From Candidatus Berkelbacteria bacterium (GTDB lineage Bacteria > Patescibacteriota > UBA1384 > XYA2-FULL-43-10 > CAINNR01), in contig JAPLVG010000017.1 of the NCBI GenBank assembly GCA_026397235.1, positions 1-37,690 on the forward strand: DNA of 37,690 nucleotides, given 5' to 3'. Position numbers and translations under genes: made by a program. Below the pieces are notes generated by a model. The model ran no database searches and was not told the DNA's origin. It saw nothing but the letters and a program-made list of their open reading frames with translations. Position 1 is the first letter of the stretch, and every line of letters begins with the position of its first letter. Positions 2,958 to 28,825 of this stretch are shown piece by piece.

Positions 2958-5062
2958 CACTAGAACAAAATGGTGCACCAAAACAAGAAATTTTGGAAAC
3001 GGGTGAGAAACCAGTCGAGGCAGTCAAACCACCTGAAACTTCTGCTGAGATATTCGCCCGAGCAACAAAAATGATAGACGATGCCAATCGTAGATTCGAT
3101 GAATCGACTGGAAGAAACCGGGGGCAAGTTGAAAAAATTGCTTCAGATCCCGACACTCAACCCGCAGATGTACAAACATCTACGGCTCAAATTGATACTT
3201 TGGACCAACAAGGTAAACAAGTTGTTGCTGATGCCAAAGAGCAAATAACACAAACAATCCAACCCGCACAAGCAGAAGCAGCAAAACCAGAAAATTTCGA
3301 CTCGCCGCCCGAAAACGAAAGAATATATATGGGTGCAGTCGAAAGACCTGACGGAACTCTTGATTTATCAAAAGCTCTTCACGCTATTGGAGATACCCAT
3401 AAAGAAATGAAAGCAAGTTTTGAGCGGAACAAATTAGAAAGGGATGCTAAGCTGGCTTCCGATTTAGAAATACCAGAAAGTGCGAAACCTGGAACGCCAG
3501 AATACACATTCTATCAAACCAGAAATGAAAAAATTATCGTCGAAAAAGCCGCACAAGCTGAAGCGGGATCAACTTCTAAATTTAAATATTCTGCTGATTA
3601 CCAGGCCAGGATTGACAGCTTAGACCAACAGTTACAACTTTTATCAGGTCTGACATCGGCAAAGACAAAACCAAGTCCAGAAGTGGCGAAAGCATATCAA
3701 AGGGATTTGGAAAATATCATTGCCACAGAAATGACTAGGGGGTGGGCAAGCGCCTATAAAGAGCAAGATCCATCCAAAATTGCAGAACATCAACAACAGT
3801 CAGAGGATTCGCTCAGGGGTGTGGATTTTCAGAAAGTATCAGACAATGCCAGAGCGGAGGCCGAAAGATTAAGGCAGGAGATGGCAACTAGCGGCGAAAC
3901 AGAAGAGTTGAAAGAGCGCATACAAGAAGAAGAGGAAGCGGCAAGAGAATATCAAAGATACGCGGATATAAAGGATGCTTTCAGTCCGGACAAATCAGCT
4001 TCAGCTGTTGAAGATACCGCACAAAAGCAAGAAGCAACTCAGCAACAAGTTGTTCCTCCTGGCAAAAAGCAAGAATCTAATACGGGTGAGGTGGCTCCTG
4101 TTAGTATTCCAGAAACGGCACCAGCTCCTCAGCAACCAGACCAGCGTCAACCACAAGTCGAAACTAAAAAAATTCTGCCAGACTTTCAACTTCTGACCGT
4201 CAAACCAGAGCAACCGCTCGAAGATTGGAGTCCTGCCGAAATTCGAGGTATTTTGATCCCGCAGTTACAAAAAGATGTTGATACCATCAGTCAACGAATG
4301 AAAACAGCTGACCCTACTGCAATGCCGATTCAAGCACAACGTCGGGTTGATGATCTGCGAGGTGATATTGCTAACTTGGAAAATTATTTACAAATTCGCG
4401 AAGGCGGTCCAGCCCCAGAAAAAGTTATGGTTAAACCACCAACACCCCCAACTGAAAAACCTGTTGAAACTGATCAGCAGCCGGAGCCTGCCCAAGAGAT
4501 TGCAGGAGATGCTACTGAACCAGTAGTAGAAACCGCAACCACCACTCCAGAAATCAAAACCGCCTCAAAAGCCGAGGCACCAAAAGTTGAGCCAGAAGAC
4601 CCATCTAAAAAACGCGAAGAAGAAGTTAATCTTTTACATAAAATGTCTGAGATTTCAAATGAAATTATGGATGGGAATGTAAGCAGTGAGAGGGCAGCGG
4701 AAATCACCAGAGAAATTACATCGTCACTTGAAGGAAATTATAATTTTGACGATTTAACTCACGGAGCAAGAATTGCGCAATCATTAAAAAATCCCAGTTT
4801 GGCTAGACAACTTCTGGGTCGAGCAGAAGCAAGTAACCGTCCTGGTGGGAAAATCACTCCTCGTGTCAGCGCGGAATATTCTTGCATAGTTGCTCGAATG
4901 TTAGCTGAATCGGGAGACATAAAGGGTGCACAAGCGAGTTTAGAAAAAGCCCAGGGAACCTACCCTGAACTTGGCGACGGTAACACAGTTTATTCAGGTG
5001 CAATAAAAGCAATTTCAAAACGAAGTAGTGTAGTTGGTCGATTGTTTAATCGTCAAAAGTAA
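2954..5062 (+). CDS. Long coiled-coil and Pro/Gln-rich hypothetical protein with TPR-like C-terminus
   Basis: The 702-residue product alternates charged helical stretches with low-complexity Pro/Gln/Glu/Thr linkers near 340-400 and 480-545. Residues about 300-335 (EAERLRQEM...EEEEAAREYQ) are a strong coiled-coil candidate. The last 150 residues are helical and include ARIAQSLKNPSLARQLLGRA and AESGDIKGAQASLEKA, which read like tetratricopeptide-type helix pairs. There is no signal peptide or membrane span. The start is inside the ATGA overlap with the 58-residue gene, so the two genes are probably co-translated. The architecture resembles a scaffold or adaptor protein. No specific function can be assigned. 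Confidence 0.7.
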   Translation: MTLEQNGAPKQEILETGEKPVEAVKPPETSAEIFARATKMIDDANRRFDESTGRNRGQVEKIASDPDTQPADVQTSTAQIDTLDQQGKQVVADAKEQITQTIQPAQAEAAKPENFDSPPENERIYMGAVERPDGTLDLSKALHAIGDTHKEMKASFERNKLERDAKLASDLEIPESAKPGTPEYTFYQTRNEKIIVEKAAQAEAGSTSKFKYSADYQARIDSLDQQLQLLSGLTSAKTKPSPEVAKAYQRDLENIIATEMTRGWASAYKEQDPSKIAEHQQQSEDSLRGVDFQKVSDNARAEAERLRQEMATSGETEELKERIQEEEEAAREYQRYADIKDAFSPDKSASAVEDTAQKQEATQQQVVPPGKKQESNTGEVAPVSIPETAPAPQQPDQRQPQVETKKILPDFQLLTVKPEQPLEDWSPAEIRGILIPQLQKDVDTISQRMKTADPTAMPIQAQRRVDDLRGDIANLENYLQIREGGPAPEKVMVKPPTPPTEKPVETDQQPEPAQEIAGDATEPVVETATTTPEIKTASKAEAPKVEPEDPSKKREEEVNLLHKMSEISNEIMDGNVSSERAAEITREITSSLEGNYNFDDLTHGARIAQSLKNPSLARQLLGRAEASNRPGGKITPRVSAEYSCIVARMLAESGDIKGAQASLEKAQGTYPELGDGNTVYSGAIKAISKRSSVVGRLFNRQK

Positions 5063-5175: not shown

Positions 5176-5724
5176 ATGAGCGAATTTCCAACTCCAGAAA
5201 TTAGCGAACTACAAGATCCAGCGCTTCCAAAATTTTGGGATGTATTTTTGGCACACCAGCGGCTAAAAGCTGGGATCGAATTTGAATTGGGATTGTTTGT
5301 TCAAAAGATGGTTGTCAATGGAACAGAGTCTTATACTCTTTATGACGATGGTGGTCATCCAATTGACAGGGGTGACCTAGATAGAGTGAACGCTAATTTC
5401 TCTCTTGATACTAGTGGTGTTGCGGGATTTTTTGTTCGTGAACCATGGATGCTGGTTCATACCCATCCAACTACATTGGATGAAGATGAAAGCCAAGTAA
5501 CAAACATTGTTGATTTACCAAGCGATGATGATTTATCTGACGCTGATTTACATAAAATGATTGTTTGGGGAGCTGAAAAATTTGGTTTTTTTGCGACTGT
5601 GATAGAGAGACCGGAAATACCAGAGGACATTGAAGCTTATAGACAAGCCGTGGAAAAATACAAAATAGCAGTCGAATCAAATGATCAAGGAAGATTTCGG
5701 CGGGAAATTTTATCGTTTAGTTGA
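5176..5724 (+). CDS. JAB/JAMM (MPN+)-like putative metalloprotease domain protein
   Basis: The 182-residue product carries HTHP at 95-98 and PSDDD at 115-119. This matches the JAMM zinc motif HxHP...SxxD, with candidate acidic residues E35/E37 upstream in the position expected for the catalytic Glu. JAMM proteins are zinc isopeptidases or peptidases that remove ubiquitin-like or peptide tags. The spacing between the second His and the Ser is about 18 residues, longer than the usual 7-10, so activity is uncertain. The reading frame ends inside the start of a +1-shifted frame whose protein continues plausibly (see next entry). The real gene may be longer and frameshifted. No ubiquitin-like or E1-like gene is adjacent. 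Confidence 0.5.
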   Translation: MSEFPTPEISELQDPALPKFWDVFLAHQRLKAGIEFELGLFVQKMVVNGTESYTLYDDGGHPIDRGDLDRVNANFSLDTSGVAGFFVREPWMLVHTHPTTLDEDESQVTNIVDLPSDDDLSDADLHKMIVWGAEKFGFFATVIERPEIPEDIEAYRQAVEKYKIAVESNDQGRFRREILSFS

Positions 5725-6734: not shown

Positions 6735-7151
6735 ATGAAAAATTCATATACAGTTCTTGAATTGCCAGAAAACTCGAAAAAATCTTTAGCTGCCGAGCTT
6801 GAAAACCTCGGATTTGTTTACATCCTACCAGAAATGGGAGGTGGCCCATCTGAGGTAGCACGACTATTGATCGCTTGGATTAATATTCATGATTTTTGGA
6901 GCATGTTGTTTATAGGAGTGCTGGTAAATCGAATTGATAAATTAATAAGCGTAATCTATGACTGGTTTAAGAAAAACCCGCCGGAGGATAAAAAAGTCGA
7001 ATATGTGGTGAATATCTCGGTTTATAATCTAAAAGATTCTTATACTATCAATCTCAAAGCGGACCAAAAATATTCAAAATCCCAAATCCGCAAGATTATC
7101 GAACAGGAGAAGAACAAACAAGCCGTTTTGAAGAAGGTTTTTAAGAAATAA
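6735..7151 (+). CDS. Small hypothetical protein, first gene of the TcmP operon
   Basis: The 138-residue product has a hydrophobic stretch at about 45-65 (ARLLIAWINIHDFWSMLFIGVL) that could be a short membrane or amphipathic segment. The C-terminal half is Lys-rich and helical (KYSKSQIRKIIEQEKNKQ). A strong ribosome site precedes it. It ends two bases before the TcmP gene, so the two are surely co-transcribed. The family is not recognised. Its position suggests an accessory to the TcmP/three-Cys pair, but this is inference. Confidence 0.6.
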   Translation: MKNSYTVLELPENSKKSLAAELENLGFVYILPEMGGGPSEVARLLIAWINIHDFWSMLFIGVLVNRIDKLISVIYDWFKKNPPEDKKVEYVVNISVYNLKDSYTINLKADQKYSKSQIRKIIEQEKNKQAVLKKVFKK

Positions 7152-7153
7152 AT

Positions 7154-8269
7154 ATGTCTAACAACAAAAGATTCTTCAGTGATCAGTCAGAGATAACAAA
7201 ATTAAAATTGTTATTTTTTGAAAACTACATTGAATCATATCTATATAAAATCCTTTACAATTTTGGCAGTTGCAGACTATTTGATCCATTCTGCGGTCCG
7301 GGTAGAGCTGGTGACAATTTGGGCAGCCCGCTGGTTTTATTGAATAAGTTGAGAAAGGTCGTAGCCACGCCGACTATTAAGAATCACTTGAAATTTGAGA
7401 TCATCTTGTTTTGTAGCGATTCGGACAAAAGCAATATTGCGAGTATAGAAAAAGAAACTGCTGCCATAAAAATTGAAAATGTAAAGGTGATATGCAAAAA
7501 TCAGACATTTGATGAATTTCATGATTTTGTAACGAAGAGTAAAATAGCACCCTCAAAAACTCCAAAGTTCATTTTTCTCGACCCTTTCGGCTACAGTCAA
7601 ATACCACTCAATAAAATTGAACAATTGGCTGCACTTCCAAACTGTGAGATTTTATTGTTTGTGCCCTTAATGGACATTTACCGCTTCAGCAATCAGGATC
7701 CTACTGCAATGGAAAAAGGAAGCAGGGTTTTTCTGGAAACATACACCAATCGGGCGATGACTGGCGGCAAAACATTTACAAACCCCCAAGATCTAATGAT
7801 GGTGATAAATATTACCTTGAAAACAAAGCTGAATAAATATGTAAGACCAATGATGTTCGACGCCGGATCAAGAAAAAATTGTTTGTTTCTAATCACCAAA
7901 AATATCAAAGGGTTAATCCTGGCGAATGAGCTGTTCTGTAAAGGTTCAGATACAAGACTTAATACTAAAATCACCGGTGTTGATAAGAATACTAGCCAAG
8001 GGAAGCTAGACTTGGAAGTCGACACTGTTGATGAAGTGGAATTCAAGGGCATTATTACAAAAGCACTTGAAAACGGAAAGTTAAATAACATCGAAATGAC
8101 GAAATTATACGCAGAAAATTATTTCTGTCAGACTTCCGCTCGTGCATATTTAACAAAGCTGATCAAGAAGGATATAATAGGGTTAACAAGGCTCGGTAAA
8201 ACATCACAGCTTTGTATTGGAGCCACCAATTTAAGCTCTGAGCCTAAAGTTGAGTTTTACTTGAAATAA
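7154..8269 (+). CDS. tcmP: Three-Cys-motif partner protein TcmP
   Basis: The 371-residue protein has a Rossmann methyltransferase-like core. Motif I is LFDPFCGPGRAG at 42-53, and FLDPFGY at 141-147 sits where DNA methyltransferases carry DPPY. The PLMDIYRF block and the overall length fit the TcmP family (three-Cys-motif partner), whose genes regularly neighbour a radical-SAM-like protein, exactly as here: the partner starts 17 bases downstream. The last 60 residues look like a winged helix. The biochemical role of the pair is not established as far as I know; nucleic-acid modification is a guess from the DPPY-like site. The call rests on motifs and context together. Confidence 0.75.
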   Translation: MSNNKRFFSDQSEITKLKLLFFENYIESYLYKILYNFGSCRLFDPFCGPGRAGDNLGSPLVLLNKLRKVVATPTIKNHLKFEIILFCSDSDKSNIASIEKETAAIKIENVKVICKNQTFDEFHDFVTKSKIAPSKTPKFIFLDPFGYSQIPLNKIEQLAALPNCEILLFVPLMDIYRFSNQDPTAMEKGSRVFLETYTNRAMTGGKTFTNPQDLMMVINITLKTKLNKYVRPMMFDAGSRKNCLFLITKNIKGLILANELFCKGSDTRLNTKITGVDKNTSQGKLDLEVDTVDEVEFKGIITKALENGKLNNIEMTKLYAENYFCQTSARAYLTKLIKKDIIGLTRLGKTSQLCIGATNLSSEPKVEFYLK

Positions 8270-8286
8270 CATTCTTTTGGAGGGGA

Positions 8287-9150
8287 ATGGAATACATAAA
8301 ACGAAAATCGCTTTTGTACAAGAGCGGTGTTGAATATGCTGACTATGGACTCAACCATGTCGAAGGATGTTCTCACGGGTGTAATTTTCCGTGCTATGCT
8401 TTTATGATCAAAAAACGCTGCGGAGTTGTGAAGACATACCAAGAATGGATCCAACCGAAAATTGTTGAAAATGCTCTTGAACTGCTCGATGCCGAACTGC
8501 CAAAACTGAAAGATAAGATCAAATGCGTTTTTCTCTGTTTCATGACAGATCCTTTTATGTATAAACAACCAGAAATTACTGACTTGACTCTCAAAATTCT
8601 AGCAAGGCTAAAACAGGATGACGTTAAATCGACGGTGATCTCAAAAGGAATTTATCCGAAAGAGCTTTTGGACAAATCAATTTACAATGAAAATAATGAT
8701 TACGGTTCAACTATAGTTTCGTTATCAGAAGATTATCGAAAAAAGTTTGAGCCAGGTTCTGCCCCGATTAAGGAGAGGATAAAAGCTCTCAAACGACTCC
8801 ACAATGCCGGCCTAAAGACTTGGGTGAGTATGGAGCCATATCCAACCCCAAACATCGTTAAACAAGATGTCAGAGAGATTCTAAAGGCAGTTTCTTTCGT
8901 TGATAAGATCGTTTTTGGTAAATGGAACTACAATAAGCGAATTTCCGCACAACCCAGCTCGAAAAACTTCTATAACTCGATGGCCGGTTATGTGATTGAT
9001 TTCTGTAATAAGCGCGGAATTGAATACCACATTAAAGATGGAACAATAAGTGAAGGCTGTTTATCCGAGGAAAAAGTTAACAAAGACCAAATAGACTTTT
9101 ATCTTAAAAGTACTCAAAGCACAAGTTCATCTAAAGCGATGCTAGTGTAA
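8287..9150 (+). CDS. Three-Cys-motif radical-SAM-like protein (TcmP partner)
   Basis: The 287-residue protein has C28, C32 and C36 in GCSHGCNFPCYAF. The context is that of SplB-like radical SAM enzymes (CX3CX2C), but with one extra residue, CX3CX3C. Downstream, VSLSEDYRKKFEPGSAPIKE and RLHNAGLKTWVSMEPYP match the barrel region of such enzymes. The cysteines would bind a 4Fe-4S cluster if the fold holds. A strong ribosome site (TTGGAGGGG) precedes the ATG. It is the last gene of the operon and ends at a bidirectional terminator. The family (Gp37/Gp68-like, DUF5131-related) is known from phages and mobile elements. The substrate is unknown. Confidence 0.75.
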   Translation: MEYIKRKSLLYKSGVEYADYGLNHVEGCSHGCNFPCYAFMIKKRCGVVKTYQEWIQPKIVENALELLDAELPKLKDKIKCVFLCFMTDPFMYKQPEITDLTLKILARLKQDDVKSTVISKGIYPKELLDKSIYNENNDYGSTIVSLSEDYRKKFEPGSAPIKERIKALKRLHNAGLKTWVSMEPYPTPNIVKQDVREILKAVSFVDKIVFGKWNYNKRISAQPSSKNFYNSMAGYVIDFCNKRGIEYHIKDGTISEGCLSEEKVNKDQIDFYLKSTQSTSSSKAMLV

Positions 9151-9175
9151 TAATACTCGAATAATTAGTTTGGTA

Positions 9176-9206
9176 ACAAAAAAGGAATCCCAGGATTCCT
9201 TTTTTG
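9176..9206. terminator. Bidirectional intrinsic terminator between convergent operons
   Basis: AAAGGAATCC and GGATTCCTTT flank a two-base loop (CA), with an A-run on the left and a T-run on the right. It can terminate the TcmP operon on the plus strand and the terminase operon on the minus strand. Confidence 0.9.
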
Positions 9207-9244
9207 TTGATGCCATAGTTTTGGCAATCGCGACACCATCAAAA

Positions 9245-10741
9245 CTAATACCTAAGACCAGGTCTTTGGTAAATCACTTTATACATATCAGAACGAAATT
9301 TCTGCATCGACTCGTATGAGATATTGCAAGTCGATGGTGGATCATTGATAATTCCTGAAATTAGAGTTGTTAATGCATCGCACAAATCATCGTGTCCAGT
9401 TAACCCAAAATCCAGAATCTGATGTAGTAATTGCTCACAGCCTTTTTCGGGAAATACTACTTTTCCCGATCTGATGTACTCGGAAATCATCGAAAGCCGT
9501 GTTCGTTTGTCATTTTGGCCAACACTGACGCCGACGGCATTCACATTTTTTTCTTTCAATATCTGGGTCAGCCCTCTTTGTGTACCGACCTCTTCAATGT
9601 AAAATCTGTGATTGGTAACATCCTTCCATGAATTTACCATGGAGCAGATATTATCAATTGTCACAGGCAACAACATTCTTGAATTTATCGGATTTGGTAA
9701 GATGTAAATTTTCAAGTCCTTGCCATAACCCATAATTTTACAAGTCACAATTGCAGTATAGTCGGCCTTTTCTCGCTCAGAAACAGCGAGGTCGACTCCA
9801 CCAGCGTAGGCACAACTTTCGTCCCTTCGCAGTTCTGGTAGGTCTTGGTAATAATGAATCCAGTTTTTTTCGATGACCGGCTCTTGGTCATCTGCAATTA
9901 TCAATAGATATTCTCGAAGCCAGGCGAATTTATCGCCAACAGCTTTTCTTTCGGCTTCAATCGCTTCCATGTCAGGGTATTTACCCGGCCATGCGATATT
10001 GCCATCTTGGTCAAGTAGAGGATATTTTCTAAATATTCCACTCCTTGCACCTTCCTCGATCTCTCTGGTCAATCTCATAACCAGACTAGATTCATGAAGC
10101 ATATTGCCGATAAGGATTTTTTTAGTATCCCTGGTGCCTAGTGGCAAAACCTCTCCAGTAAACCATCGATAAGTGTTGTTTCTGGATTCCTCTGATTTAA
10201 CGGAGGCTAAATCCTCAATATCGTCAGCAATAATTAAATCTGGTCGGTGACTACCGTGTTTAACTCCACGGATTGATTGTTCTCGTGAAACCGCTATGAT
10301 TTTCGCATTGTGTTTCGGGATTACAAGACTGCAGGAATTCCATTCATCCATTTGACGAAATGGACCAAGGTCTTGCCTTAATAACTCGTTGGTCTCAAGC
10401 TCCTTCTTCAGGTTGGCGAAGTGCTGCTTGGCTTGTTCCTGGGTTTGGGAAATGATCACAACAAATTTGCACTTCATTTTCCCTAATATCGCCCAGATCG
10501 GGTAACTTGTGGTCATGAGCGTGATTTTTCCTGAACCCCTAAAACTGCAAATTACAGCTAGTTTTACATTTTCATCCTCGGATATCTGGAACATCTCGCG
10601 ATGAAATGGGGCGATTTCGTACTTTACATAATCATTGAAATATACATGGAAGAACCAGAGGTGAGAATCCGTTGTTACGGCAACTCTCGCTGCTTGGTTC
10701 TTAATTAACTGGTCGATAGCCACTTTGTTTTCTTTAGTCAT
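9245..10741 (-). CDS. terL: Phage terminase large subunit (TerL)
   Basis: The 498-residue protein has the two-domain layout of terminase motors. The ATPase part carries a P-loop CSFRGSGK at 65-72 and Walker B DLIIADDIED at 168-177. The RNase H-like nuclease part carries GGVDLAVSEREKADYTA around D317, YIEEVGTQ at 381-388 and GHDDLCDAL at 449-457, giving an acidic triad. TerL packages phage DNA into proheads and cuts concatemers. The residue after the P-loop Lys is Ile (ATC), where Ser or Thr is normal; this may impair ATPase activity. The ATG overlaps the small subunit stop as ATGA, and AAAGGAGATC is the ribosome site. No portal or capsid gene is nearby. Confidence 0.88.
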   Translation of the reverse strand: MTKENKVAIDQLIKNQAARVAVTTDSHLWFFHVYFNDYVKYEIAPFHREMFQISEDENVKLAVICSFRGSGKITLMTTSYPIWAILGKMKCKFVVIISQTQEQAKQHFANLKKELETNELLRQDLGPFRQMDEWNSCSLVIPKHNAKIIAVSREQSIRGVKHGSHRPDLIIADDIEDLASVKSEESRNNTYRWFTGEVLPLGTRDTKKILIGNMLHESSLVMRLTREIEEGARSGIFRKYPLLDQDGNIAWPGKYPDMEAIEAERKAVGDKFAWLREYLLIIADDQEPVIEKNWIHYYQDLPELRRDESCAYAGGVDLAVSEREKADYTAIVTCKIMGYGKDLKIYILPNPINSRMLLPVTIDNICSMVNSWKDVTNHRFYIEEVGTQRGLTQILKEKNVNAVGVSVGQNDKRTRLSMISEYIRSGKVVFPEKGCEQLLHQILDFGLTGHDDLCDALTTLISGIINDPPSTCNISYESMQKFRSDMYKVIYQRPGLRY

Positions 10742-11169
10742 TTGATCTCCTTTAAATTATTTGAACTTATTAAATTTGCGAGCTTTAATGCTTTTTTGAT
10801 GTTTGTTTCCTGCTCTTTAGTCAACTTGTAATCTTTAATTTCCAAGTTTCCATTGAGCTCGAGCTTGTTTCTATACAGGTTATGTCTGTGATTTAGCCAG
10901 TACATAACGGCTGTAAGGTTGTTATCCTTCATCGCACTGATCAGCTGGCTTTCTGCCATATCATTGATCAGCGCACAACCCTCCTCTAACGCTTTATCGC
11001 AGGCCGAGGCAAACTTGTTGCTCTCGCGACGCCAACGATAGTAACTATTTCTGCCTATATCGACCTTTTGACAGGCAATTTCCACAACCGGTGTCTTTTT
11101 CAATTGATCAACCAGTTGTTGTTGGATTTTACTTTTACGAATTTTAATTGCGGTTTCAGGTTTGTTCAT
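10738..11169 (-). CDS. Terminase small subunit-like helix-turn-helix protein
   Basis: The 143-residue protein has an N-terminal helix-turn-helix region (VEIACQKVDIGRNSYYRWRR, about 28-47). The family pattern follows: a phenylalanine-containing helix, INDMAESQLISAMKDNN and TAVMYWLNHR. This fits phage small terminase-like DNA-binding proteins (phBC6A51 type) that recognise the packaging site. It is coupled by ATGA overlaps at both ends, to the methyltransferase upstream and to TerL downstream, which supports the assignment. The ribosome site GAGGAGGTCC lies within the upstream gene. Confidence 0.75.
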   Translation of the reverse strand: MNKPETAIKIRKSKIQQQLVDQLKKTPVVEIACQKVDIGRNSYYRWRRESNKFASACDKALEEGCALINDMAESQLISAMKDNNLTAVMYWLNHRHNLYRNKLELNGNLEIKDYKLTKEQETNIKKALKLANLISSNNLKEIK

Positions 11170-11936
11170 TGGACCTCCTCAATTTTTACTGCTTTGATTC
11201 CAAAGGTTTTCTCAAATCGCTCAATTATGACTCGGCAATATTCCGGATCGAGCTCAACACCCATGGAAATTCTTTTTGTTTGCTCCGCCGCCAAAATCGT
11301 GGATCCTGATCCTAAGAAGGAATCAAATATCACATCGCCTACACTTGAACTGTTGAGAATCAGATTTCGTAAAAGTGGGATCGGTTTTTGCGTAGGGTGA
11401 AGGTTGGATTTGCTTGGTCGTGGGTAAAACAATACTGATTTGTCCGGTGATTTCTTGAACTCGTGTGTGCCCAACCACCCGTATAGCACGAGCTCGTGGG
11501 CGGGAAGGTAATTTAGCCTACCAATCACAGCGTGTGATTTAACCCAAACAATCAGCTGTGAGAATTTAAATCCTGCCTCCAAGAATCCTTCACGAAGTGC
11601 AAAAATCATTTTGTCACTGTTAAAGATATATGCAGAATTTTTCTTCTCCAAGTGCGGTTTTACAGCATCAAGCCAATCCTTGGTGAATTTGGCATATTCT
11701 TCATCAGATTGGAACTGATCGTTGATAATATCTCGGTGTTGAGTTTTTGTTTTAACAAATGAATTTCGTGCTTGGCTGACCTGAATTCCATACGGAGGAT
11801 CAACCAGCAAAACCTTGATTTTGTCCTTGCCGATCAGTTTTTTAATAATCTCAGAGTCTTTTGCGTCACCATTAATTATTCGGTGACATCCCAAAGCAAA
11901 CATGTCGCCATATTTGATCTCAATTTTATTCTCCAT
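11166..11936 (-). CDS. DNA adenine/cytosine-N4 methyltransferase, intact motifs
   Basis: The 256-residue protein has the permuted (beta-class) order. The catalytic motif IV DPPYGI is at 46-51, HPTQKP at 180-185 and the SAM-binding motif FDSFLGSGST at 204-213, with conserved spacing. It should methylate an exocyclic amino group of A or C in DNA. No restriction enzyme is present, so this is an orphan methyltransferase of the kind found next to phage packaging genes. Its first 11 bases overlap the ParB-methyltransferase gene, and its last four overlap the small terminase gene. The ribosome site AAAGGAGATCAAA is clear. The target sequence cannot be predicted. Confidence 0.87.
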   Translation of the reverse strand: MENKIEIKYGDMFALGCHRIINGDAKDSEIIKKLIGKDKIKVLLVDPPYGIQVSQARNSFVKTKTQHRDIINDQFQSDEEYAKFTKDWLDAVKPHLEKKNSAYIFNSDKMIFALREGFLEAGFKFSQLIVWVKSHAVIGRLNYLPAHELVLYGWLGTHEFKKSPDKSVLFYPRPSKSNLHPTQKPIPLLRNLILNSSSVGDVIFDSFLGSGSTILAAEQTKRISMGVELDPEYCRVIIERFEKTFGIKAVKIEEVQ

Positions 11937-13221
11937 TTTGATCTCCTTTGTGAATTAATATTGCATCCTGTCCGGTTAAGTTTTTGAACCTTAAAATCGC
12001 CAAATCTACGAAGATTGGCTCAATATCAATTGTGTAACAACGGCGTTTGAGCTGCTCACAGGCGATTAGGGTTGAAGCTGATCCCGACGCTAAATCCAGC
12101 ACAACATCATTGACTTTGGTGCATCTGCGAATAGGCTTTTCGTGCAAAGTGACAGGCTTTTCCGTGCTGTGGATGTAATCTTGACCCGCAAGTCGTTTTA
12201 CCAGCCAAATATCCATCATGTCCAAAATGTCATCGATCTGACGGTTGCCAGAAGCGACATCACGGTTCAAAACCTCCGATAAATTAGCCAGTTTCTGCGA
12301 AATGAACGGTTTACCGATCGTGCCATACAAAACAGGCTCAAAACTCTTGTTAAAAGCTATTTGTGGAGTGGGGTTGATTCCATTTTTCAACCACAGGCAC
12401 AATCTTTTGCTGTTAATACCCAACTCGCGATATATTTCCTGCAGAAGCCACACGTATAATTGATCCGAGTAAAAAAAGACATGGCAGTCAGGTTTAGCGA
12501 CTGACAAGGCGTTACTGATAGTTTTCTTCAGAAACTCTTTGTAATCAGCATCGCTCATATTGTCGTCGATGTGGCCACCGTACGAGGATTTGCCGCCAAG
12601 GCCCGAATTGTAGCTCAGACCGATATTAAATTTGCAATCTGTGTAAATCATATCGACCTTAGTATCATCTAGAAGTTTTTTGACAAACTCCGAGTCGGTC
12701 GAGCTTCCGCAACCGATAACATGGCGCCCCAAAGAGTAAATTTCTCCCAGTTTTGTTTTTGGGACTTTGATTTCTTGTTTTGCTTTTTCAACATCAAAAT
12801 CATCACTTTCTGTACCTAGCGAATCATCCCAAATAGCTGACAGATCGATTTCGTTGAATCCCGCTTCCATGACAATATCGATATCCCAATCCTTGAGAAT
12901 GTTGAGATTGAAAATTCCATTCAACACATTCATTCTGAGTAGAATTTCCTGCATTTTGCGGACATCGGTTATTATAGTTTTCACTACGGGAACTTCCGGG
13001 ATTTTTAACTCTCTGGCAACTATCAGGCGAAGATTGCCTGACAACACAACATACTCATATTTGGGAGCCATATTGACCAGCAATGGTGAAGTCCACCCGA
13101 ACTTTCTAATCGACTTTATTAAGTCTGATTTACCCTTATCATCGAAATCTCGGGGATTTCCCGGATAGGGTTTTAACAATTCTGTTTTTACATACTCAAT
13201 CTTGATTTTTTCTTCTTTCAT
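11926..13221 (-). CDS. ParB-domain/DNA methyltransferase fusion with degenerate catalytic motif
   Basis: I chose the ATG at 13221 because a perfect AGGAGG lies just upstream; the frame stays open to 13266. The 431-residue protein begins with a ParB/Srx-type domain (about 5-95, with PGNPRDF and LSGNLRLIVAREL). It continues into a beta-class methyltransferase. Motif IV reads TDCKFNIGL at 194-202, so the two catalytic prolines of DPPY are replaced by Cys-Lys. Motif I is altered to DLASGSAST at 376-384. HSTEKP at 351-356 is close to normal. It is probably catalytically weak or inactive, perhaps acting as a DNA-recognition subunit for the intact methyltransferase that overlaps it. ParB-methyltransferase fusions are common in phages. 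Confidence 0.82.
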   Translation of the reverse strand: MKEEKIKIEYVKTELLKPYPGNPRDFDDKGKSDLIKSIRKFGWTSPLLVNMAPKYEYVVLSGNLRLIVARELKIPEVPVVKTIITDVRKMQEILLRMNVLNGIFNLNILKDWDIDIVMEAGFNEIDLSAIWDDSLGTESDDFDVEKAKQEIKVPKTKLGEIYSLGRHVIGCGSSTDSEFVKKLLDDTKVDMIYTDCKFNIGLSYNSGLGGKSSYGGHIDDNMSDADYKEFLKKTISNALSVAKPDCHVFFYSDQLYVWLLQEIYRELGINSKRLCLWLKNGINPTPQIAFNKSFEPVLYGTIGKPFISQKLANLSEVLNRDVASGNRQIDDILDMMDIWLVKRLAGQDYIHSTEKPVTLHEKPIRRCTKVNDVVLDLASGSASTLIACEQLKRRCYTIDIEPIFVDLAILRFKNLTGQDAILIHKGDQNGE

Positions 13222-13486
13222 AATTCCTCCTAAATTAGTTCTTATATACAAAAATTCCCGCATCAATCTTGATATGCGGGTTCATTTTTGGCAACCGACC
13301 ACTGCCGAAAACACAAAACCCGCACACTATAGCGCAACTTCTAATGAAGTTTACGCATAATGCAGTGTTTTGTATTTCTGGGGTTGCCGTACTCTACAAG
13401 AACAAAGCTTTCTATAACCCCGTCGATATTTCGACTAAGGCGTTCTCCTTAAGCAATCATTTTTGGATTGCCAGCTAAAAAGGATT
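13222..13486 (-). ncRNA. Highly structured leader or small RNA upstream of the methyltransferase-terminase operon
   Basis: A promoter starting transcription near 13486 leaves a leader of about 265 nt with no convincing ORF. Read on the minus strand it contains these stems in order (plus coordinates): 13466-13471/13453-13458, 13447-13451/13436-13440, 13431-13435/13422-13426, AACCCC/GGGGTT at 13416-13421/13380-13385, a long stem centred on AACTTC-TAAT-GAAGTT at 13336-13351 with outer ACACT/AGTGT arms, and a terminator-like hairpin at 13257-13280. GGTTGCC at 13382-13388 can instead pair with GGCAACC at 13290-13296, which would break the AACCCC/GGGGTT stem. Mutually exclusive stems before a terminator hairpin are the hallmark of an attenuator or riboswitch. 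No known class is recognised. Confidence 0.5.
13251..13280 (-). terminator. Terminator-like hairpin 36 bases before the ParB-methyltransferase start
   Basis: CCCGC at 13257-13261 pairs with GCGGG at 13276-13280, and ATCAA at 13262-13266 pairs with TTGAT at 13269-13273 around a TC loop. On the minus strand the stem is followed by AATTTTTG. This is a candidate attenuator for the operon. Confidence 0.6.
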
Positions 13487-13492
13487 AATTTA

Positions 13493-13522
13493 ATTCTATT
13501 ACCAATCACAGATCTTTGTCAA
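13493..13522 (-). promoter_or_regulatory. Promoter of the methyltransferase-terminase operon
   Basis: On the minus strand a consensus TTGACA (13522-13517) and TAGAAT (13498-13493) are 18 bases apart. The predicted start point is near 13486. Confidence 0.7.
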
Positions 13523-13576
13523 GAGCTCCAAAGTTTTTGTTGATTTATGACACAAAGACGCTAGAGAGTCCAGAAA

Positions 13577-13618
13577 AATGATACGGCCCTTTTTTATAGT
13601 GTATCATTGTGTATCATT
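13577..13618. promoter_or_regulatory. Three AATGATAC-type iterons
   Basis: AATGATAC at 13577-13584 faces two copies of GTATCATT at 13601-13608 and 13611-13618. The latter two are spaced exactly 10 bases apart, so they lie on the same helix face. They sit 55-100 bases upstream of the minus-strand promoter and are a plausible regulator binding site. The rest of 13619-13780 shows nothing definite. Confidence 0.45.
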
Positions 13619-13779
13619 TCGCCTCAAATCGTTGAAAAATAATACAACGCCACAAACCCACTAGAAATGCCAGCTTTATTCCATTTTGAGGGCAAATCTG
13701 GTATCGTAAAAATTAGCCAATGGAAAGGGACAAAGGGTATTAGAAAGGTCTAGACCCAGCTGTCCCGCCAAAGAATAAA

Positions 13780-14275
13780 AATTAGAAGATAAAGACGGTA
13801 AAGAGGGTATAGAAGATAAAAAACGGGGGGAAAGATGGGGAATTACAAAGATACAATCACTTACAAGCAGGCGACGGAAGCTTACGAGCTGACTTATAAG
13901 CAAAATCAAGCCGAGGGAGCGTTGCGAAATAGTGTGAAAGCGCTGATTGAATTTCTCGGTTTTGCTCGCGCTTCCGGCGAAGAATTGCTGGAAGATTATT
14001 TGGATTTAGCCAAGGATCACAAAATTATTATTGTTCGACCAACATCTTTATCATCTCTATCATCTAAATCCTCTTTGTCTTCTGATTTAAATTATCTAAT
14101 TGATTCGATTACCAGGACCAACTACCTGCTCGACCGCTAGCGCCAAGCACTGGAAAAACATTTTATTGAACACGGCGGTCATACGGAAAATTTGGCAAAA
14201 AGGAGAAGGGAATATAGAGGATATTGAAGTAAAACAGAAGGTAAAGACGGTTAAGAAGATAAAGATGATAAAAAA
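13780..14275. repeat. Low-complexity GATAAAGA-type tracts around and inside the four-helix gene
   Basis: Purine-rich tracts built on AGATAAAGA and GGTAAAGA occur at about 13780-13820 and 14223-14275. A tract in the opposite orientation (TCTTTATCATCTCTATC and so on) lies at about 14046-14085 inside the coding sequence. They look like expanding simple repeats or remnants of complementary ends. Confidence 0.6.
13835..14227 (+). pseudogene. Decayed four-helix-bundle (suffix-domain type) protein gene
   Basis: The frame gives 101 residues and an in-frame TAG at 14138-14140, after which the same frame continues with RQALEKHFIEHGGHTENLAK to a TGA at 14225. The text matches the four-helix-bundle family with the suffix domain (relatives of the 23S rRNA intervening-sequence protein). 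Visible parts are QNQAEGALRNSVKALIEFLG, FARASGEELLEDY, then TNYLLDR and the post-stop RQALE segment. The usual stretch between the first helix and QN-AEG is missing. A Ser/Leu-rich tract encoded by simple repeats replaces part of the middle. The TAG probably replaced a Gln codon (CAG). TAG ends normal genes here, so this is a pseudogene rather than recoding. The start has a G-rich ribosome site. Confidence 0.75.
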
Positions 14276-15443
14276 TACCAAAAAACTAAAGTTTCCAAAA
14301 GGCTTTCTCTTTGGGTCGGCGACATCGGCTCATCAAATCGAAGGTCATTTGAATAACGACTGGGCACGCTGGGAAAAGATTCCTGGCAAGATTTCTGATG
14401 GCACAACATCTGAACTTGGCGCTGATAGTTGGAATAAGTGGCGCGAAGATATAAAACTACTAAAAAATACCTCGCAAAATGCCTATAGATTTTCCATCGA
14501 ATGGTCGCGGATTGAGCCGAAAGAAGGTTTTTTTGATGAAGGCGCTATTGATCATTACGATCAGATAATCGACGAACTAATTAAAAATGACATCACACCA
14601 ATGGTAACGTTGTTTCATTTCACATGTCCGCTTTGGCTGGATGATATTGGCGGTGTTGCCAACAGAAAATTTGCCAAGTATTTTGCCCGCTTTTCTGGCA
14701 GAATGGCGAAAGAATTTGGAGATAAGGTTGAACTCTGGTCGGTAATTAATGAGCCTAGCGTGTATGTGAATGCAGGCTACATCATCGGTCATTGGTACCC
14801 GGGCAAGCGCAACATTATTGGTGGGGTCAAGGCATTTTTTCACCTTGTTTCTGCTCATAAACAAGCGTACTCTAGCATGAAAAAGGCTAACCCGAGGGTC
14901 AAGGTAGGGATTGCCATGAATATGACCGCATTTGAGCCGGTTAAAAAAACCTGGTGCAATCGTGCTCTAACGAGGGTAGCAAAATGGTTGGTAAATGAAT
15001 ATTCAATAAATTTGGTTCGCAAAAACCTCGACTTTCTCGGCATAAATCACTACATGTCGCACAAAATTCAGTGCAAAAAACCGATTATGTTTGATGAGGG
15101 TGGAGCTAAAAGCGAATATGGCTGGAGTGTTCACCCGGAAGGACTCTACCAAGTAATAATGGAAGCCAGGCACTGGAATTTGCCAGTCTACATTACTGAA
15201 AACGGCACGGCTGATTCATCTGATAGGTTGCGACAAACATTTATCCCAGATTTTTTGGAAAAGTGCTCTGATGCGATTGCAGATGGTGCCGACCTTCGAG
15301 GCTACTTTTACTGGTCTCTGATTGACAATTTTGAGTGGGCTAGTGGATATTCAATGAAATTTGGATTGCATACTATCGACCGAAAACCCCGCAAATCGGC
15401 CGAGATTTACAAGAAAATTATTGAACAAGCTACAGGTGAGTAG
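14265..15443 (+). CDS. Glycoside hydrolase family 1 (beta-glucosidase-like)
   Basis: The frame is open from 14100, but the upstream part runs through the 3' end of the four-helix pseudogene and a low-complexity tract. I therefore place the start at the ATG at 14265, giving 392 residues. The product begins with KLKFPKGFLFGSATSAHQIE, the classic GH1 N-terminus. It has the acid/base Glu in INEPS (E163), the nucleophile in YITENG (E312) and the C-terminal WSLIDNFEWA aglycone block. Family members hydrolyse beta-glycosides of glucose, galactose or related sugars. There is no signal peptide, so it acts on sugars inside the cell. At 392 residues it is shorter than the usual 430-480. The ribosome site is weak. 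Confidence 0.87.
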   Translation: MIKNTKKLKFPKGFLFGSATSAHQIEGHLNNDWARWEKIPGKISDGTTSELGADSWNKWREDIKLLKNTSQNAYRFSIEWSRIEPKEGFFDEGAIDHYDQIIDELIKNDITPMVTLFHFTCPLWLDDIGGVANRKFAKYFARFSGRMAKEFGDKVELWSVINEPSVYVNAGYIIGHWYPGKRNIIGGVKAFFHLVSAHKQAYSSMKKANPRVKVGIAMNMTAFEPVKKTWCNRALTRVAKWLVNEYSINLVRKNLDFLGINHYMSHKIQCKKPIMFDEGGAKSEYGWSVHPEGLYQVIMEARHWNLPVYITENGTADSSDRLRQTFIPDFLEKCSDAIADGADLRGYFYWSLIDNFEWASGYSMKFGLHTIDRKPRKSAEIYKKIIEQATGE

Positions 15444-15481
15444 TTTTTGTGATAAAATAGAAGCAAACATACAAATGATAA

Positions 15482-15549
15482 GCCCTCCTTCGCTCGAATT
15501 CGTCTCGAGGACTACGACCCTCGCAGACGAATGCTCGCTACGGAAGGGC
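15482..15549 (+). repeat. 68-bp palindromic repeat, copy A
   Basis: The unit begins GCCCTCC and ends GGAAGGGC, with internal CTCGAGG and CCCTCGCAG blocks, and can fold on itself. A second 68-bp copy with about eight differences lies in the opposite orientation at 26043-26110. Confidence 0.85.
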
Positions 15550-15598
15550 GCAACAAAATACTATTGGAAAAATATTAACGAAGTTGCGAAAGGATAAT

Positions 15599-25625: not shown

Positions 25626-26000
25626 TTACCCCATTTCGATTTTTAGCGATTTGGTTTTTGACCGTGCATCTTTTGGAATAATGATGGAAAGCAAACCGTT
25701 TTTCAACTGTGCTTTGGCTTTTTCTGAATTGACAGCAATCGGCAGCACAAAAGTGCGACCAAAAGGTCCCCAATAACATTCTTGGACAAAATGTTGCTCG
25801 TCTCCAGCTTTGTGACCACTTTTGCGCTCACCACGAATTGTTACAACTTCATCGGTAATTTGAACATCAATATCTGCGGGAGCGGTGCCAGCAATTGGTG
25901 CCAATAAATAGATATTTTCGTCGTCTTGATACACATCAATAGCGAGCTGACCCTCAGTTTCCTCATCGCCAACATTTATATTGATACTGTCTTCACCCAT
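25626..26000 (-). CDS. Small heat-shock protein, Hsp20/alpha-crystallin family
   Basis: The ATG at 26000 follows GGAGGGG; an in-frame GTG at 26012 is an alternative. The 124-residue protein has the alpha-crystallin core: LAIDVYQDDENIYLLAPIAG, DIDVQITDEVVTIRGER, ECYWGPFGRTFVLP and the terminal AQLKNGLLSIIIPK. It is an ATP-independent chaperone that holds unfolding proteins. The promoter lies at 26146-26174, so the message has a leader of about 140 nt that contains a 68-bp palindromic repeat. Confidence 0.93.
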   Translation of the reverse strand: MGEDSININVGDEETEGQLAIDVYQDDENIYLLAPIAGTAPADIDVQITDEVVTIRGERKSGHKAGDEQHFVQECYWGPFGRTFVLPIAVNSEKAKAQLKNGLLSIIIPKDARSKTKSLKIEMG

Positions 26001-26042
26001 CAGCCCCTCCACAACTCCTTAAAAAATACAAAAGTCCGTTGT

Positions 26043-26110
26043 GCCCTTCCGTAGCAAGCTTTCGACTGCGAGGGCTGTAATCCTCGAGGCGAATTCGAGC
26101 GTAGGAGGGC
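26043..26110 (-). repeat. 68-bp palindromic repeat, copy B, in the hsp20 leader
   Basis: It is the reverse complement of copy A at 15482-15549, with about eight differences out of 68. It lies between the hsp20 promoter and start codon and would fold in the message. Confidence 0.85.
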
Positions 26111-26145
26111 TAGTCCGTTTAGCAATAAAAATTTGCCCTATAACC

Positions 26146-28495: not shown

Positions 28496-28524
28496 TTGAC
28501 ATTGTGTAATATAGTATATACATT
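28496..28524 (+). promoter_or_regulatory. Promoter of the BrnT/BrnA operon
   Basis: TTGACA at 28496-28501 is 17 bases from TACATT at 28519-28524. The ATG at 28529 is close to the predicted start point, so the message may be leaderless. Confidence 0.6.
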
Positions 28525-28528
28525 ATAT

Positions 28529-28825
28529 ATGAAAGTATTCAAAAACCCACTGGCCTTCGAATGGGATGAGGGCAATAAGGATAAAAATTTTATTAAGCAC
28601 AAAGTAACAAATGAAGAGTGTGAAGAGATATTTTTTGATACAAAAAAGAAAATTGCAGATGACATTTTTCACTCGGGTAAAGAACAAAGAAGTATTATCA
28701 TCGGCAAAACGAAATTGGGAAGATACCTATTTCTAGTTTTTACTACTAGGTATAATAAAATTAGAATTATTTCAGCTAGGGATTTGGATAAAAAAGGAAG
28801 GTCTTTGTATGAAAAAGAAAATTAA
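28529..28825 (+). CDS. brnT: BrnT family toxin
   Basis: The 98-residue protein has the BrnT pattern FEWDEGNKDKNFIKHKVTNE near the N-terminus, then RSIIIGKT, RYLFLVFTTRYNKIRIISAR and the final YEKE. BrnT is a RelE-fold ribonuclease that blocks translation and is neutralised by BrnA. The start at 28529 is chosen because the in-frame ATG-like codons upstream lie within the -35 box. It overlaps the antitoxin gene by 17 bases. The pair sits between two tRNA-Ser genes. Confidence 0.88.
   Translation: MKVFKNPLAFEWDEGNKDKNFIKHKVTNEECEEIFFDTKKKIADDIFHSGKEQRSIIIGKTKLGRYLFLVFTTRYNKIRIISARDLDKKGRSLYEKEN

Follow-up and report, generated by a model that had tools for sequence, protein, structure and literature searches.

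Introduction

In lambdoid phages the untranslated stretch ahead of the terminator tR' is ~200 nt long, and the RNA that runs from pR' to tR' bears the name lambda 6S RNA. The lambdoid late promoter pR' has been described together with tR' and the antiterminator Q (PMC6606751). RNA antitermination in cis is attributed to the canT RNA of Tn916 and the put RNA of phage HK022 (PMC11658703). A different arrangement is given for IsrK of prophage Gifsy-1: the transcript on which it acts in trans contains a small ORF (PMC4825925).

Little is known about gene timing in phages of Patescibacteria. We analyzed a 37,690-nt stretch (hereafter, the window) that represents a whole contig (JAPLVG010000017.1) of a 925-kb Candidatus Berkelbacteria genome. 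A preliminary description, made from the letters alone, had proposed that a long leader with mutually exclusive stems and a terminator hairpin precedes a methyltransferase-terminase operon in a phage-like module. None of the literature matches listed describes this leader.

Results

A packaging operon with a strong promoter

Domain and PHROG matches identified the four genes of the operon as a ParB-methyltransferase, a second methyltransferase and the two terminase subunits (Table 1), in agreement with the preliminary reading. All four proteins are intact, and their departures from conserved columns are no greater than those seen in many relatives. Methyltransferase motif IV, usually DPPY, reads DCKF in the ParB-methyltransferase of the window and DPPY, DLPY, DVPY or DPIY among its relatives, while the second methyltransferase of the window retains DPPY. 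Since synteny with a same-genus genome extends to a glycosidase at 14283 and ends at the packaging module, the module looks like an insertion. Neither a repressor nor an integrase or serine recombinase lies beside the operon, and a PHROGs scan of 14 window ORFs found no other structural phage gene; the window copy may therefore be a decaying remnant.

Two genes lie convergent to the terminase, at 6735-9150, one a radical SAM or weakly DUF5131-type gene and the other unknown (371 aa); in relatives, a serine recombinase often occupies this position. A 109-aa ORF at 28496-28825, flanked by two tRNA-Ser genes, matches a phage ribonuclease-toxin family. The short dispersed repeats at 13575-13771, 15474-15588 and 25997-26111 also occur on other contigs of this genome; those at 13575-13771, beside the promoter, do not belong to the leader.

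The TTGACA-18-TAGAAT promoter reported earlier was confirmed. It agrees with 11 of 12 consensus positions and ranks first among 19 promoter-like sites in 9000-14200. When the 400 nt preceding the ParB-methyltransferase gene were shuffled 200 times, no shuffle reached its score.

Table 1. Coordinates of the operon, its promoter and the elements of its leader.
Feature	Coordinates	Strand	Basis
Sigma70-type promoter TTGACA (13522-13517) - 18 - TAGAAT (13498-13493)	13493..13522	-	sequence, promoter scan, shuffles
Structured leader, inferred transcript start to base before ATG, 265 nt	13222..13486	-	fold z -6.70
5' hairpin 1	13445..13482	-	prefix folds
Small hairpin GTCGA...TCGAC	13422..13435	-	full and prefix folds
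Early alternative, GGGGTT (13421-13416) with AACCCC (13385-13380)	13380..13421	-	prefix folds, helix list
Late alternative, GGCAACC (13388-13382) with GGTTGCC (13296-13290), enclosing rod	13290..13388	-	fold, helix list
Long rod hairpin, base GAAATACAAAAC (13378-13367) with GTTTTGTGTTTT (13319-13308)	13308..13378	-	fold, terminator scan, helix list
Candidate 12-bp antiterminator helix (13327-13316 with 13283-13272), in competition with the rod and the terminator	13272..13327	-	helix list, shuffles
Intrinsic-terminator-like hairpin CCCGCAT...ATGCGGG with AATTTTT tail	13250..13280	-	sequence, fold, helix list
Shine-Dalgarno AGGAGG	13226..13231	-	sequence
ParB-N domain fused to N6/N4 DNA methyltransferase, 431 aa (ATG at 13221)	11926..13221	-	domain match
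Second DNA methyltransferase, 256 aa	11166..11936	-	domain match
Terminase small subunit, 143 aa	10738..11169	-	phrog_4102, 7.2e-08
Terminase large subunit, 498 aa	9245..10741	-	Terminase_6C, 2.1e-07

Structure of the leader

The leader folds with a minimum free energy of -89.7 kcal/mol, compared to a shuffle mean of -61.1 (sd 4.27), and none of 200 shuffles folded as well, which bears out the long multi-stem structure first noticed by eye. As judged from prefix folds, hairpin 1, the small hairpin, the GGGGTT/AACCCC pairing, the rod and the terminator-like hairpin form in that order along the growing transcript. Both of the exclusive pairings originally named are real: GGCAACCCC (13388-13380) can pair with GGGGTT over 6 bp (stacking -12.9), or through its first seven bases with GGTTGCC over 7 bp (stacking -15.2). 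The rod has a U-rich 3' side and is itself terminator-like. The GC hairpin that had been placed just before the start codon, with its T-rich tail, is likewise present; its arms, CCCGCAT (13280-13274) and ATGCGGG (13263-13257), are followed by AATTTTTG, it ends 28 nt upstream of the ParB-methyltransferase start, and its U-tract is modest, with two A preceding five T.

As the preliminary description had anticipated, the leader belongs to no class that we could recognize: Rfam scans at gathering thresholds and at E<=10 returned no match (best E at least 1.2, far under the gathering scores). No homologue of the leader sequence was found in its own genome, 60 relatives, phages or the fetched homologous loci, the sole phage match being a 33-nt stretch attributable to chance (E 0.3). 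Three further candidate features were rejected. The 10 candidate leader-peptide ORFs of at least 5 aa, which a translation-coupled attenuator would use, include none with a Shine-Dalgarno sequence by eye; masking of the Shine-Dalgarno sequence by the 5' part of the leader was as good in 326 of 500 shuffles; and 2 boxA-like motifs are present compared to 2.05 expected.

Competing helices in the window leader

The strongest competing pairing was absent from the preliminary list. It joins GTGTGCGGGTTT (13327-13316) to GAACCCGCATAT (13283-13272), thereby engaging the 5' arm of the terminator, and is the strongest single helix in the leader (stacking -21.6, versus -15.5 for the terminator stem). 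Such a helix was equalled in 5 of 5000 shuffles in which the terminator arm was fixed and the upstream sequence shuffled, in 19 of 2000 whole-leader shuffles, and in none of 300 in a per-leader test. The leader also contains 37 conflicting helix pairs, compared to a shuffle mean of 17.1 (sd 10), a count reached in 8 of 200 shuffles. These properties speak for an RNA switch, whether attenuator or riboswitch, in which a ligand, protein or trans RNA would shift the balance between the 12-bp antiterminator on one side and the rod with the terminator on the other, and the leader itself would decide termination. However, the 12-bp match may partly reflect the repetition of TGCGGG and a T-rich end, as in tandem terminators, and the Rfam scans offer no class for such a switch. 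Moreover, among the other leaders that we chose for having a placeable terminator (16 with that of the window), the competing helix was no better than chance in 14 of 15 (lowest 74/300), L026 (7/300) being the exception; it is not general among the relatives. We therefore regard an RNA switch as unlikely.

In the transcript extended to the U-tract, the terminator fold (-81.4) is favored over a forced antiterminator (-72.9), and the rod, which contains the competing strand, forms before the terminator. Because the terminator fold is preferred and the rod is made first, termination is the predicted default outcome. Exclusive helices are common in shuffles too, so the originally named pair, taken alone, argues only weakly for a switch. 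Nor are the named stems supported as conserved working parts, given that the leader has no homologue, that the covariance model described below misses the window, and that the competing helix is at chance level in nearly all other leaders examined. Of the attenuator or riboswitch logic proposed at the outset, attenuation or antitermination is likely, whereas a riboswitch is not supported by either Rfam or the distribution of the competing helix.

Homologous operons in relatives

Loci with ParB-methyltransferase homologues, from genomes and viral contigs, are designated by L-numbers. Of 379 genomes of the phylum, 21 contain relatives of the gene, a count that includes the genome of the window, whereas the 54 other genomes of the class that were searched contain none; a further 42 loci lie on viral contigs, with more recovered through a second alignment (80 rows). 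Across 23 mapped genome neighborhoods the recurring order is ParB-methyltransferase, often the second methyltransferase, the small and large terminase subunits, and a serine integrase or recombinase. A conserved neighbor (c2) considered as a portal was rejected, as it is a serine recombinase. The divergent neighbor is a LexA/CI-type repressor in three tested loci (L039, L047 and L054), which places the promoter of these loci in an immunity region; in others it is not a repressor, for example an HsdM-type gene in L059. In L100 (2365-5360), the N-terminal part of the ParB-methyltransferase (2365) is split by an insert from the rest (residue 95 on, at 3650).

Terminators recur upstream of the operon

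The same position was scanned for terminators in 50 upstream regions, comprising 22 genome loci, 27 viral loci and the window. The viral set consisted of 24 of the 42 loci (4 duplicates, 13 that were partial or lacked upstream DNA, and L094, which overlaps the upstream frame, were left out) plus 3 from the second alignment; genome locus L023 was left out for want of upstream DNA, and L100 was added later, once the covariance model described below had matched it, for the promoter, fold and helix tests. A terminator was found in 25 of the 50 regions, versus 7 of 250 shuffles. On the sense strand it was present in 9 of 14 divergent copies (gap at least 100 nt), compared to 17 of 89 divergent control genes from the same loci (Fisher p 0.001, rising to 0.003 when L078 and L079, which are homologous, count as one and to 0.007 when the window is dropped as well), and in 15 of 26 co-directional copies (gap at least 60 nt), compared to 34 of 137 controls (p 0.002). 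Antisense terminators numbered 1 of 14 and 9 of 26, respectively, and the difference between strands in divergent copies was significant (p 0.004). The comparison with control genes is conservative, because some control matches are themselves LOOT RNAs. The five divergent loci without a terminator by our criteria were L012, L019, L024, L056 and L087; one is visible by eye in L024 and L056, where it was left uncounted. In the window, the scan ranks the U-rich rod above the GC hairpin. Elsewhere, L045 carries a near-perfect bidirectional hairpin terminator (54 nt, within 5222-5480) in the divergent gap of two other genes, beside a tRNA gene.

A sense terminator in a divergent gap cannot serve the upstream gene, and its position between the promoter of the operon and the first gene is the signature of attenuation or antitermination. 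It could instead be an insulator and nothing else, or the hairpins could serve stability or processing of the mRNA from its 5' end, either way with no antitermination control. Terminators of element genes, such as T1 of Tn916, can insulate against host promoters (PMC11658703), and the excess of terminators in co-directional copies fits such a role. In divergent copies, however, the terminator comes after the best promoter, so that a pure insulator would silence the operon's own promoter too; a stabilizing hairpin, for its part, needs no strand-specific U-tract, yet the divergent copies show one. We accordingly give very little credence to insulation or stabilization alone.

Promoters and folded leaders

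Promoters were scored in 22 leaders of our choosing, which included 13 of the 14 divergent ones (L087 was out). Near-consensus promoters lie 170-380 nt upstream in the window, L010, L016, L024, L056 and L058, and the best site was matched in 0 of 200 shuffles for the first three and in 2, 4 and 5 for L024, L056 and L058, respectively. Corresponding counts were 12 for L025, 28 for L079 and 33 for L059, and the best site was ordinary in the remaining 13 of 22 (55 to 197 of 200 shuffles). Folding was strong as well: for upstream gaps of at least 200 nt the median z was -5.31 (n=20), compared to -0.90 and -0.87 for 54 divergent and 65 co-directional controls (p 8e-6), and z was -4 or lower in 11 of 20 leaders versus 19 of 119 controls. 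With the homologous L078, L079, L100 and L101 counted as one the proportion was 8 of 17 (p 0.006), and with the window also removed 7 of 16 (p 0.015). The folds of L010, L012, L056 and L069 were not unusual (z -0.3 to -0.8). Promoter, folded leader and terminator thus recur well above controls at the position where the preliminary description had suggested looking. The leaders themselves differ in sequence, length and fold; that of L016, for example, is a short lead-in with a single 46-nt hairpin, and L010 has a 37-nt hairpin.

A subfamily with a covarying fold

The leaders of L078, L079 and L101 are homologous to one another. Their consensus fold shows both-side changes in 26 of 87 pairs, with many other cells broken. 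When restricted to hairpin 2 and the terminator rod, both-side changes occur in 10 of 40 pairs, compared to 3.9 in shuffles and 0-2 when the structure was slid; 95.0% of cells are paired, and the covariation score is 0.558, versus 0.392 in shuffles (0/500 as high) and 0.075-0.158 when slid, in a test of three sequences whose structure was derived from those same sequences. A covariance model of this part (R1) also matched L100 (E 1.1e-4), at a site whose end lies ~55 nt before the ParB-methyltransferase start. The window leader was not among the 7 matches of the model at E<=10, and a search of 379 genomes under stricter filters, run without a positive control, found nothing.

The covarying fold of this subfamily, like the possession of a promoter, strong fold and terminator of its own, would suit an independent small RNA: once terminated, the leader would work in trans like IsrK, or serve packaging as a structural RNA, and readthrough would be incidental. 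That function is nonetheless very improbable, given that the leaders of relatives have no common sequence, fold or length and that what recurs is the promoter and terminator, as expected of a barrier in cis.

A probable terminator barrier ahead of the packaging genes

We consider it probable that a promoter-proximal terminator holds the phage packaging operon off by default and is overcome by antitermination, in the manner of lambda pR'-tR'. The strong, constitutive-looking promoter seen in the sequence would start a leader transcript predicted to form several successive hairpins and a long rod, after which polymerase would meet the putative intrinsic terminator. By default, most transcripts would stop there as a ~235-nt structured RNA, and the methyltransferase and terminase genes would thereby remain off. 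A factor from the host, or one that the element encodes, would then bring about antitermination through polymerase or the leader RNA, which would permit readthrough and turn the operon on. In the window copy the RNA could contribute, in that 13327-13316 would pair with the 5' arm of the terminator if rod formation were prevented. Because promoter and terminator recur while leader sequence, length and fold vary, a cis barrier overcome by antitermination appears the likeliest common function of these leaders, judging from the sequences compared.

As to the factor, the Q family (PF06530) was represented above cut-off in none of 20 genomes, with 4 weak sub-threshold matches, and we have accordingly not classed the leader as a Q system. 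An extra NusG paralogue, as in LoaP-type antitermination, was not found in these genomes, each of which gave one NusG match.

LOOT RNA in the same elements

Copies of LOOT RNA (RF03000) were present in several of the elements, on the minus strand of L079 (6784-6663), L048 (8522-8400, the same place as L025 952-1074), L101 (5654-5520), L053 (13504-13382), L056 (1423-1287), L038 (12173-12054) and L100 (8559-8442), and on the plus strand of L051 (3746-3878 and 15243-15368), L052 (4839-4971) and L054 (15504-15625). All 11 copies examined are closely followed by an ORF in the same orientation, and most have a GC hairpin with a CTTTTTG-like tail; the ORFs tested gave one weak Mrr-type nuclease, one weak NucS and one peptidoglycan-binding domain match. 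To our knowledge LOOT RNA has no known function. Its placement suggests that it serves cargo genes as a terminator-bearing 5' leader, and our findings offer it a testable role.

Discussion

A recurring promoter-leader-terminator barrier would show that these elements use termination control as lambdoid phages do, with neither a recognizable Q nor an extra NusG. The leader is also a well-delimited piece of DNA on which readthrough could be assayed simply. A bolder proposal, which we hold to be rather unlikely, is that the leaders are new, rapidly diverging RNA antiterminators of the put/canT kind that would modify polymerase for passage through their own terminator, with the LOOT RNAs, which precede other operons of these elements, as a second branch of one antitermination regulon.

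As with IsrK (PMC4825925), the window would give a prophage-type leader RNA that ends at a terminator, with a readthrough mRNA; unlike it, the window leader lacks a small ORF led by a Shine-Dalgarno sequence. LOOT RNA occurs in the same kind of element and is likewise structured, and most copies end in a GC hairpin followed by a CTTTTTG-like tail a short distance upstream of an ORF; the window leader has no match to RF03000. With canT and put (PMC11658703), the leaders share a mobile element, a promoter, a complex folded RNA and terminators, a likeness of architecture; RNA-based antitermination of that kind may operate in them. Relative to lambda pR'-tR' (PMC6606751), the window operon differs in encoding the ParB-methyltransferase, methyltransferase and both terminase subunits, the leader is more folded, and no Q exceeded the Pfam cut-off in 20 genomes. 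The two nevertheless have in common a strong promoter, an untranslated stretch and an intrinsic terminator ahead of late genes, with a default state that is off, which is here a prediction.
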